Shown: positions 24,225-28,025 of the stretch, in pieces
Numbering within the stretch: position 1 is the stretch's first letter
How the letters are laid out: each line of letters starts with the position of its first letter
Notes under the pieces: model-generated
The model's database searches: none
Told to the model about the DNA's origin: nothing
What the model saw: only the letters and a program-made list of their open reading frames with translations
Made by a program: the position numbers and the translations under genes
From: Koleobacter methoxysyntrophicus
GTDB taxonomy: Bacteria; Bacillota; Thermosediminibacteria; Koleobacterales; Koleobacteraceae
DNA: 64,000 bases
Assembly: GCF_017301615.1 (NCBI RefSeq)
Contig: NZ_CP059066.1
Span: 1,144,001-1,208,000, forward strand
Reading direction: 5' to 3'

Positions 24225-25034
24225 TTGGGCGGAAATAATAAACCAATAGGTGTTTTTGATTCCGGAGTAGGAGGGCTTACCGTTGTTAAGGAACTGTTCC
24301 GGTACCTCCCCGCTGAAGAAATAGTGTATTTCGGTGATACTGCCAGGGTTCCGTACGGCACGAAATCCAGGGGAACCGTTACCCGTTTTGCCTTTGAAAG
24401 CACCGGGTTTCTGATGGACATCGGAATCAAGATGCTGGTTATTGCGTGCAACACGGTGAGTGCTTCAAGCCTCAAGGAGATAAAAGCCAATTTCGATATA
24501 CCGGTCCAGGGTGTGATACACCCGGGAGCAGGGGCAGCGGTAAAGGCAACGAAAAATAAAAAAATAGGGGTTATAGGGACCGAAAGGACCATATCCAGCG
24601 GTGCTTACGTAGAGGCCATAAGAGCACTAGACGAAAGTATTGAGATATATTCAAAAGCCTGTCCCCTTTTCGTCCCCCTGGTAGAAGAGGGGTGGCTTGA
24701 TACAGAGGTTACCTACCTTACAGCCATAGAATACCTCGAGCCTCTGAAACGTGAGGGCATAGATACGTTAGTCCTGGCATGTACCCATTATCCCCTCCTA
24801 AAGGGTACGATACGGCATATCATGGGGAAAAACATAACCCTCATAGACTCGGCCATGGAAACGGCAAAAGCCGTTAAGGAAACCCTAAAATCCTTGGGCC
24901 TGGAGAGAAAAACAGATTCACCGCCTTCGCACAGGTTTTATGTGAGCGATAATCCGGAAAAATTCGTTAGGGTAGGAGAGAGATTTTTGAATAAAAAAAT
25001 AAATTCAATAGAAAAGATTGATATTGAAGGGTAA
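24225..25034 (+). CDS. murI: Glutamate racemase
   Basis: A 269-residue cofactor-independent racemase making D-glutamate for peptidoglycan. The two catalytic cysteines are in ACNTVSA (C75) and ACTHYPLL (C186), with the DSGVGGLTV and YFGDTARVPYG blocks. The start is TTG 24225 with AAGGAGGAA about 9 bp upstream. The length is normal and it appears intact. Confidence 0.95.
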   Translation: MGGNNKPIGVFDSGVGGLTVVKELFRYLPAEEIVYFGDTARVPYGTKSRGTVTRFAFESTGFLMDIGIKMLVIACNTVSASSLKEIKANFDIPVQGVIHPGAGAAVKATKNKKIGVIGTERTISSGAYVEAIRALDESIEIYSKACPLFVPLVEEGWLDTEVTYLTAIEYLEPLKREGIDTLVLACTHYPLLKGTIRHIMGKNITLIDSAMETAKAVKETLKSLGLERKTDSPPSHRFYVSDNPEKFVRVGERFLNKKINSIEKIDIEG

Positions 25035-25295
25035 ATAGAATTGGTAAACCAAAGCGTTTGGCCACAGCTTTTACATAGTTCTTGTATATAAGCAGCCGAA
25101 CGTTAGATCACTCGATGACCTCCAGGGTCACATATGCCTGTTCTTATCAGCAAAGATTGAGAAGAATTATTAGTTTAAAATGTAACGTGTCAATAAAAAA
25201 TTAAAAAGTGGTAACTATTTTAGCAGGAAAAATTCATTTTTAGGAGAATGATATCATATATAGTGGTACATAATAATATACATCGGGGGAAAATC

Positions 25296-25562
25296 GTGGG
25301 GAATTATCAGAAACTTTATCGTAAAATTAAGAATAATCCGAAAGATGTAAAATTTAATGATCTGGAAAAATTGATGACCAAAGTCGGAGGCTTTACTTCA
25401 TTACCTGGAAAAGGTGATCACTATTCATTTGTACACCCGGACTTAGATTACCCGATTGTAGTGGATACGAGAGGAAAAAGAAAACCTCTAAAGCAGTATA
25501 TCGTAAAAAAGTGTCTTCGAGTTTTTGAAGAGTTGAATCCGCATTTTGGAAAGGAGGATTGA
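25296..25562 (+). CDS. hicA: HicA-like toxin (mRNA interferase family)
   Basis: About 88 residues of the HicA/YcfA double-stranded-RNA-binding-like fold. The conserved glycine-histidine site is in GKGDHYSFVHPD and the basic end is RKPLKQYIVKKCL. HicA toxins cleave mRNA when not bound by HicB. The GTG start at 25296 has GGGGGA 5 bp upstream; an in-frame ATG 48 bp earlier is possible but lacks a ribosome site. hicB follows after 3 bp, and the three-gene set is AT-rich relative to its surroundings. Confidence 0.75.
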   Translation: MGNYQKLYRKIKNNPKDVKFNDLEKLMTKVGGFTSLPGKGDHYSFVHPDLDYPIVVDTRGKRKPLKQYIVKKCLRVFEELNPHFGKED

Positions 25563-25565
25563 TCT

Positions 25566-26081
25566 ATGAGTAAAAATCTGAAATATGGCATAAAAATATC
25601 TTTGTTATCAGAAGAAGATGGGGGAGGATACTTAGTAGAAGTCCCTGATCTGCCAGGTTGTATTACTGATGGTGATACTGTTGAAGAGGCAATATCTAAA
25701 GCTAAGGAAGCAATTGAGACATGGATTGAAACAGCTAAAAAAATGGGAAAGCCAATTCCTGAGCCAAGTTCTTACATAAATGAAAATGACTATAGTGGCA
25801 AATTAACTGTTCGAATGCCTAAGATTCTTCACAAAGAATTAGCTGAGGTTGCAGAGGAACAAGGGGTAAGCCTCAATCAGTTAATTATATATTATTTGTC
25901 AAAAAGTGTTGGGAAAGAGATGGCGGTAACTGCAAGCACTGAAACATTTATGATGAGAGAAGAAAAGTTTATTATTCATAAAACAGTTGCTGATGATAAT
26001 AATTTATGGCAGAAGATAAATGATAGACCAGAATTATTAGCTGAGAGGTTAAAAAATAGTAGGGGGTTAAAAAATCTGTGA
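25566..26081 (+). CDS. hicB: HicB-family antitoxin with extended C-terminus
   Basis: A 171-residue antitoxin. The N-terminal HicB partial RNase-H fold contains GGYLVEVPDLPGCITDGDT and AKEAIETWIE. A ribbon-helix-helix DNA-binding segment follows (KLTVRMPKILHKELAE, then GVSLNQLI). Typical HicB proteins end soon after this; here about 50 extra residues follow. A downstream SecB-like gene starts inside the stop codon. The extension could be a chaperone-addiction segment, as in HigA of the M. tuberculosis system; this is inference. Confidence 0.82.
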   Translation: MSKNLKYGIKISLLSEEDGGGYLVEVPDLPGCITDGDTVEEAISKAKEAIETWIETAKKMGKPIPEPSSYINENDYSGKLTVRMPKILHKELAEVAEEQGVSLNQLIIYYLSKSVGKEMAVTASTETFMMREEKFIIHKTVADDNNLWQKINDRPELLAERLKNSRGLKNL

Positions 26082-26506
26082 GTAAGCACAGGGAAAAACG
26101 AAATGAAACTATTTTAAATAAATTAAGAGTAATAAATATTCGATTAGAAAAACTCGAAGGAGAAACTGTTGAATTTAATTCTTCTGAATTTGAACAAAAC
26201 AAGATTGAGTTAAAAACCAAGTGGGATTATAACATAAGAAAAAAGGAGAAAGATATTTTAATTCTAACTGCGAATTTTAATACTTACTTTGTGCCTGAGA
26301 TACTGTTTAAACTTGAGTTAGAATATTCAATTTCCTACAAGCTCAAGGGAGATGTAAGCTTGGAAGAAATTAAATCTGAAATAGAGGAAATATTACGCCC
26401 TTGCGGCGAACTTAATACTATGATAGTTGCTCAATTGACTGATAAAATGGCCGGTTCACCTTTAATTGTACCTCCAATAATTAGAATAAAAGATGAAGAA
26501 GATTGA
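26078..26506 (+). CDS. SecB-like chaperone (putative TAC component)
   Basis: A 142-residue protein with the layout of SecB: an amphipathic start (LRVINIRLEKLEGE), alternating beta strands, then a C-terminal helix and loop (LNTMIVAQLTDKMAGSPL followed by VPP) resembling the SecB LFPYAR...PPL.L.P ending. The GTG start lies in the hicB stop (GTGA), so translation is coupled. SecB homologues linked to toxin-antitoxin pairs stabilise an otherwise unstable antitoxin. Assignment rests on pattern only; it could be an unrelated small protein of the same length. Confidence 0.55.
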   Translation: MSKHREKRNETILNKLRVINIRLEKLEGETVEFNSSEFEQNKIELKTKWDYNIRKKEKDILILTANFNTYFVPEILFKLELEYSISYKLKGDVSLEEIKSEIEEILRPCGELNTMIVAQLTDKMAGSPLIVPPIIRIKDEED

Positions 26507-26701
26507 AAGCCAAAATTTTGTTCGAATAAAGCCCGAATTTAATTGGGAATTATGCTACTATGCATATAGCAAAGTCATTTCCTGCCAGTTAATACATAAA
26601 TATTCAAGCAAATTTCTGGCTATTTCAAACTCCCGTTACCTTACAATAATTCTATAGCTGGCTGCAGTTCTGCTGTGCGACAAACGCGACAAACTTTCTT
26701 A

Positions 26702-26730
26702 TTGACACATCTCTTTTAAACTGATATGAT
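26702..26730 (+). promoter_or_regulatory. Sigma-A promoter of the pyr operon
   Basis: TTGACA (26702-26707), 17-bp spacer, TATGAT (26725-26730). The 26507-26700 stretch before it holds no recognisable feature. Confidence 0.8.
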
Positions 26731-26740
26731 ATAAAAAATG

Positions 26741-26841
26741 AATAAATCCTTTAAACTGGTCCTGTGAGGCTGGTAAGGAACGGTATAATAGGGGAATATG
26801 TGCAACCTTCCTGCTGTACGTCTGACAGCAGGAAGGTTTTT
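26741..26841 (+). promoter_or_regulatory. PyrR-type pyrimidine attenuator
   Basis: The leader contains GGTCCTGTGAGGCT at 26759-26772, matching the PyrR-binding loop consensus (ARUCCNGNGAGGYU). An intrinsic terminator follows: a 14-bp stem (26804-26817 with 26825-26838) ending in a T run at 26837-26841. In Bacillus, UMP-bound PyrR stabilises the first hairpin and lets the terminator form, shutting the operon off when pyrimidines are plentiful. No pyrR gene is present in this window. Confidence 0.8.
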
Positions 26842-26849
26842 GGCGTACA

Positions 26850-27086: not shown

Positions 27087-28025
27087 ATGTTAAAATCCAA
27101 GGATATCCTCGGCCTTGAGGAAATGGATGTTGGGGATATCGAGCTGATCCTTGAAACCGCCGAGTCGTTTAAGGAAATCCTCAGAAGGGACATAAAAAAG
27201 GTCCCTACCCTCAGGGGTAAATCGGTGGTAAACCTTTTTTACGAGCCCAGCACCAGGACCAGGAGCTCCTTTGAGCTGGCAGGAAAGTACCTGAGTGCCG
27301 ATGTGATCAATTTCTCTAAAGCCACCAGCAGCGTTGCCAAAGGGGAGACACTGAAAGACACGGCAAAGACCATTGAAATGATGGGGGTACAGGTTGTGGT
27401 TATACGCCATCCCGTTCCCGGTGCACCCCACATGCTGGCCCGGTATCTGGATGCCGGTGTCGTAAATGCAGGGGATGGTGCCCATGAACATCCTACCCAG
27501 GCCCTGCTGGACCTTTATACGATAAAGGAAAAGAAGGGCAGGATTAGGGGGTTGAAGGTGGCCATAATCGGTGATATCCTCCACAGCCGTGTTGCCCGTT
27601 CAAATATCTGGGGGCTTAAGAAAATGGGTGCCGAAGTTGTGGTTGCCGGGCCGAGGACGTTGCTGCCCCCATTTATAGAAGAGCTCGGGGTAAGAGCCTA
27701 CACCAGGGTGGAGGATGCTATTGAGGGCGCCGATGTGGTAAATGTCCTGAGGATCCAGATGGAAAGACAGAAGAAGGGGCTGTTTCCTTCTCCCAGGGAA
27801 TACGCCATTATCTTCGGGGTAAATGCTGAAAGGCTGAAGCTGGCAAAAAAAGACGTGCTTTTAATGCACCCGGGGCCTATGAACAGGGGTATAGAAATCA
27901 GCTCGGACATTGCCGATGGAGAATCATCTGTAATAAATGAACAGGTAACAAACGGTGTAGCCGTAAGGATGGCTATTCTGTACCTTTTGAACGGAGGGGG
28001 GAAGTTCGGTGAAAAGGATAATTAA
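27087..28025 (+). CDS. pyrB: Aspartate carbamoyltransferase, catalytic chain
   Basis: 312 residues; joins carbamoyl phosphate and aspartate in the second step of UMP synthesis. The carbamoyl-phosphate site [12 protein letters not shown] (near residue 52) and the [11 protein letters not shown] block are intact. No regulatory pyrI chain is present. ATG 27087 follows GAAGGGAGAG. It overlaps pyrC by 17 bp, first in an eight-gene operon. Confidence 0.96.

Follow-up and report, generated by a model that had tools for sequence, protein, structure and literature searches.

A probable HicAB-type toxin-antitoxin-chaperone module with a divergent SecB-like chaperone in Koleobacter methoxysyntrophicus

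The stretch of DNA analyzed here (the window) comprises 64,000 nt of the Koleobacter methoxysyntrophicus contig NZ_CP059066.1, positions 1,144,001-1,208,000, and all coordinates below are those of the window. Three genes on the same strand, each with a ribosome-binding site, form a tight cassette with murI to its left and the pyr operon, which is under PyrR control, to its right; they code for a HicA-family protein, a HicB-family protein and a protein with a predicted SecB fold. The module and its immediate neighbors are as follows:

24225..25034, + strand: murI (glutamate racemase), left neighbor outside the module, assigned from its open reading frame and from synteny with relatives
25296..25562, + strand: hicA, toxin, 88 aa, GTG start with a good ribosome-binding site (PF07927, E = 8e-5)
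25566..26081, + strand: hicB, antitoxin, 171 aa, with an N-terminal HicB-like domain, a ribbon-helix-helix segment and a 55-residue tail
25914..26078, + strand: codons of HicB residues 117-171, the tail, a candidate chaperone-addiction (ChAD) region judged by the length and Trp content of tails at different loci
26078..26506, + strand: SecB-like chaperone gene, 142 aa, GTG start, based on an AlphaFold2 model, a Foldseek search of the PDB and profile links
26744..26843, + strand: PyrR-binding leader/attenuator of the pyr operon, right neighbor outside the module (RF00515, 52.9 bits, slightly below the 54-bit cut-off; E = 1e-5)

The GTG start of hicA lies just 3′ of a CGGGGG motif, and an alternative in-frame ATG at 25248 would extend the protein to 104 aa. 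AAGGAGG precedes the ATG start of hicB, and AGGGGG is found a few bases 5′ of the GTG start of the third gene. The coordinates of the open reading frames agree with an earlier, sequence-only reading of this DNA, which had placed hicA and hicB 3 bp apart and the start of the third gene inside the hicB stop: GTGA is common to both genes, a 4-base overlap. The AT-rich island described in that reading is likewise apparent, as the 2 kb of the module have 34-36% GC vs. 43-50% in the adjoining kilobases.

In two genomes of the same order (G002 and G003), murI adjoins pyrB with no module in between, and thus the cassette either represents an insertion or was lost from these two genomes. The PyrR-binding leader is kept 5′ of pyrB in G001, G002 and G003, and pyrB of the window starts at 27087. 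A gapped inverted repeat matching at 27 of 33 positions flanks the module (25167-25199 on the - strand and 26695-26726 on the + strand); it outscored all 500 shuffles and has just two occurrences genome-wide. Its interpretation as the termini of a mobile element is not claimed here, since the right arm corresponds to the pyr promoter and the repeat was picked post hoc. An ungapped inverted repeat around the module scored no better than shuffles, and a terminator-like site in the region was at chance level only.

The match of the window HicA to PF07927 (23.1 bits) falls under the curated cut-off of 27 bits. Its counterparts at two other loci (L007 and L009) exceed this cut-off. Neither G40 nor H42, the catalytic-type His, varies among six relatives, of which two score above the cut-off. 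The window HicB matches PF15919 (HicB_lk_antitox, 3e-17), PF05534 (ribbon-helix-helix HicB, 7e-13) and PF21748 (7e-9), and its best matches in the PDB are HicB structures. The domain match stops near residue 111-115, and the protein ends in LKNL. By these matches, with HicA of the window itself under the cut-off, the pair falls into one of the type II toxin-antitoxin families (HigBA, MqsRA or HicAB) from which toxin-antitoxin-chaperone (TAC) systems are built.

The third protein has no match among the Pfam, NCBIfam, PHROG or PADLOC models, nor any by sequence in the PDB. An AlphaFold2 model was built from a three-sequence alignment that contained the window protein and those of two viral-collection contigs (L046 and L067); a single-sequence fold was dropped as too poor (pLDDT 44), its order of strands and helices being already similar. 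The retained model (pLDDT 74, pTM 0.67, with the last 17 residues poor) has a b-b-b-b-a-a topology (E13-28, E44-56, E60-72, E77-89, H95-105 and H107-125), i.e., the four antiparallel strands followed by helices of the SecB fold. When compared by Foldseek with 350,542 PDB chains, its top match is 5mtw, Rv1957 bound to a ChAD peptide (E 9.5e-4, prob 1.00), followed by many SecB chains; acyl-CoA thioesterase folds are also among the matches, at lower TM-scores. Two of the top three matches in a viral library are annotated as SecB. The suggestion that the third protein is SecB-like, which had been made from its C-terminal end, is hence borne out by the predicted fold, with Rv1957 and canonical SecBs ranking on top.

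A first whole-genome search yielded eight relatives of this protein, and the profile built from these was then run on 399 Bacillota genomes, where it found 28 loci in 27 genomes. Pfam SecB (PF02556) matches four of the 28 members (1e-7 to 1e-11), two of which are of the CmdTAC type (PD-T4-9_A and _C); neither the window protein nor any HicAB-linked chaperone reaches the PF02556 gathering score. When 19 relatives were scanned against NCBIfam, PHROGs and PADLOC, nothing was found except isolated weak matches of single members (PHROGs and PADLOC). Pattern searches for the chaperone in genome contigs returned no confirmed match, and tblastn searches in plasmids and phages returned none. The top PDB sequence match of the 28-member profile is SecB of H. 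influenzae (E 0.0032). Profile comparisons lead to canonical SecB over a bridge with E values of about 1e-11 on each leg: the strict family, from which Pfam-positive members were removed, aligns by hhalign with those members, a set of CmdC-like and related proteins, at E 3e-11, and this set aligns with canonical SecB at E 4e-11. The strict family compared directly with canonical SecB gives a weak score (E 0.014, prob 3%), so that the sequence link is transitive, and the case for homology depends on intermediates together with a moderately confident fold model. Taken with the 4-base overlap, the predicted fold and the profile bridge indicate that the toxin and antitoxin genes share their operon with a gene for a SecB-homologous chaperone, as in TAC systems.

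HicA and HicB open reading frames lie directly 5′ of the chaperone gene and on the same strand at 15 of the 28 profile loci, the window included, and further hicA-hicB-chaperone triples were found at L012 and on the viral-collection contigs L046 and L067. The arrangement goes beyond chance, as numerous other genera of Bacillota have it too. At one locus (L033), a member of the chaperone family accompanies an MqsA antitoxin (PF15731, 5e-14) that follows a likely MqsR, and two loci are CmdTAC-like; MqsA and CmdTAC-type toxins are both established partners in TACs. Three loci (L039, L041 and L045) have an unclassified partner, and the remaining profile loci are apparently solitary or have no assigned partner. 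Pfam SecB is present in 24 of the same 399 genomes, and five of its loci overlap the 28 profile loci, none of them HicAB-linked. A search for Pfam SecB in the window genome found none.

The sequence-only reading had noted that HicB carries about 50 residues beyond its ribbon-helix-helix segment and had drawn a parallel with the antitoxin extension of M. tuberculosis HigBA-SecB; the extension is present and, across loci, tied to the chaperone gene. The window HicB has a 55-residue tail after residue 116. Among HicBs of the ribbon-helix-helix type, tails measure 45-78 residues when a chaperone gene is adjacent (n = 14) and have a median length of 9 residues when it is not (n = 33; Mann-Whitney p 9e-7, a value that is optimistic because the loci are phylogenetically related). 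HicB therefore shows the variable antitoxin C-terminal extension, absent from two-component relatives, that is typical of TAC systems. Three related HicBs (L106, L111 and L120) have Ser/Ala-rich tails of 49 residues without an adjacent chaperone gene, and on account of these counterexamples the idea that every tailed HicB must have a chaperone gene beside it was discarded. Two of the three genomes behind them (G397 and G146) encode a Pfam SecB elsewhere, which makes chaperone dependence in trans conceivable in these cases. The other exceptions are a tail of 33 residues (L064) and a masked sequence (L122).

Tails cannot be aligned across loci, and ChAD sequences have likewise been described as not alignable (PMC5105189). 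Trp occurs in 16 of 17 tails, usually once, compared with about eight expected at a background of 1.1%, an enrichment that is suggestive only, because the background is assumed and the sequences are related. The window tail has a single Trp, Trp148 (codon 26007-26009), in the context NNLWQKIND. In M. tuberculosis HigA1, the key contacts are Trp108, Arg110 and Tyr114 (PMC6377645).

Given the gene order, the domain identities, the predicted SecB fold, the recurrence across genera and the association between tail and chaperone gene, the three genes very probably constitute a HicAB-type TAC module. By analogy with the TACs studied so far, HicA would be an RNA-cleaving toxin that stops growth, and HicB would bind HicA and probably repress the operon via its ribbon-helix-helix domain. 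The 55-residue tail would act as a chaperone-addiction sequence which, when unbound, blocks the folding of HicB or leaves it open to proteolysis. The SecB-like protein, co-translated with HicB, would bind this tail, probably around the single Trp, allowing HicB to fold and to neutralize HicA; should the chaperone become limiting or busy with another client, HicB would be lost and HicA freed.

The sequence-only reading had regarded a HicAB version of such a system as a less studied form. On novelty this needs revision, as a HicAB-type TAC was shown experimentally in 2016 (PMC5105189). In the M. methanica system the chaperone is required, and the HicB C-terminus is a transferable addiction sequence (PMC5105189). 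The kind of system is thus already known, and what is new is an additional example on a divergent chaperone branch that Pfam SecB misses. Mmet-TAC of Methylomonas methanica MC09 (Bordes et al., 2016; PMC5105189), whose need for the chaperone was shown in E. coli (PMC5105189), resembles the window module in combining HicA, a C-terminally extended HicB and a SecB-like chaperone. However, Mmet-TAC is gammaproteobacterial, whereas the window module belongs to Bacillota and its chaperone falls outside Pfam SecB. The Mmet-TAC chaperone is 53% identical to a Vibrio TAC chaperone and is described as SecB-homologous; its comparison with that of the window is by description only. HigBA1-SecB of M. tuberculosis (Rv1955-Rv1957) has the same toxin-antitoxin-chaperone order and an antitoxin extension with a key Trp, and 5mtw is the best fold match of the window chaperone, with about 11% identity between the chaperones over the fold alignment. 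On the other hand, its toxin and antitoxin are HigBA and those of the window HicAB. CmdTAC (PD-T4-9) is also a three-gene operon with a chaperone of a related family encoded last, but its toxin is an mRNA ADP-ribosyltransferase and its small antitoxin, CmdA, ends in LAA, unlike the window HicB with its LKNL end. Two-component hicAB systems have the same toxin and antitoxin domains, while their typical ribbon-helix-helix HicB ends about 9 residues past the domain and no chaperone gene accompanies them.

Alternatively, the window might harbor a plain two-component HicAB beside an independent SecB-like chaperone with a role in protein export or in folding at large, in which case both the operon layout and the tail would be incidental. 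The nearest relatives of the chaperone are indeed solitary genes with neighbors conserved in two genera, this genome encodes no Pfam SecB, and overexpressed TAC chaperones of Methylomonas, Vibrio and Geobacter can substitute for E. coli SecB (PMC5105189). An independent chaperone nevertheless appears improbable here in view of the repeated hicA-hicB-chaperone adjacency in many genera, the 4-base overlap between hicB and the third gene, the longer HicB tails found beside chaperone genes, and the absence of the whole cassette from the site in the two same-order genomes. It is far less probable still that the third gene codes for a small alpha/beta protein unrelated to SecB and similar to it only at the PP-containing end: the missing direct family match and the weak direct profile score would fit such a protein, but Rv1957 and SecB come first among the 350,542 chains and both legs of the profile bridge reach E ~1e-11.

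A HicAB-type TAC could also serve mainly in phage defense, along the lines of CmdTAC: a phage protein would titrate the chaperone, leading to degradation of HicB and to an infection aborted by HicA. In competition for the CmdTAC chaperone, the T4 capsid protein prevails over the antitoxin (PMC11618068), and the family of the window chaperone includes loci that match the PD-T4-9/CmdTAC toxin and chaperone models. Phage defense as the main function seems rather unlikely, if less so than an independent chaperone; it is a proposal about the trigger and does not conflict with a HicAB-type TAC.

An earlier survey counted SecB through PF02556 (PMC4257090), and since this model recognizes none of the HicAB-linked chaperones, these would form an overlooked branch. 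HicAB has been regarded as the rarer TAC partner (PMC5105189); in the chaperone family described here, which is present in about 7% of the sampled Bacillota genomes and is for the most part undetected by the Pfam SecB model, it is the commonest partner. As the window genome is without Pfam SecB, such modules would offer clean hosts in which to study the chaperone dependence of antitoxins and the release of toxins.

The distance matrices of HicA, HicB and chaperone are correlated (r 0.62-0.73, Mantel p 2e-4, likewise optimistic given the relatedness of the loci), which is consistent with transfer of the three genes as a unit, common species history also contributing. The nearest relatives of the window chaperone are solitary genes of two genera, at 36-38% identity and with a common neighborhood, and chaperoning HicB is therefore not the only job that the window chaperone might have. 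With moderate tree support, the window chaperone may have been recruited from, or released to, a solitary role. We give slightly less than even credence to a broader scenario, in which a TAC-chaperone branch is widespread in Bacillota and missed by Pfam-SecB surveys, and in which the window chaperone derives from a solitary Gram-positive SecB-like protein recruited by a HicAB pair whose antitoxin was already tailed. If true, tailed and tail-less HicBs, along with solitary and addicted chaperones, would provide natural pairs for studying the origin of addiction.

Several loci outside the HicAB-linked group deserve mention. A solitary SecB-like gene is found beside a glutamine-amidotransferase-like gene in two genera (L018 and L019; L010 and L011), with 63% mutual identity. 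Two loci in Bacillota (L042 and L044) are CmdTAC-like, with a weak match to the PD-T4-9_A toxin and a strong match to the PD-T4-9_C chaperone; their small middle protein ends in VA or VAA, like the LAA end reported for CmdA. At three further loci (L039, L041 and L045), a protein ending in SYAA is followed by a SecB-like protein and then by a protein of ~230-260 aa. The SYAA-ending protein, tested in L039, matches PF03787 (RAMP superfamily) at 8e-6, and this three-gene set is possibly another TAC-like module.
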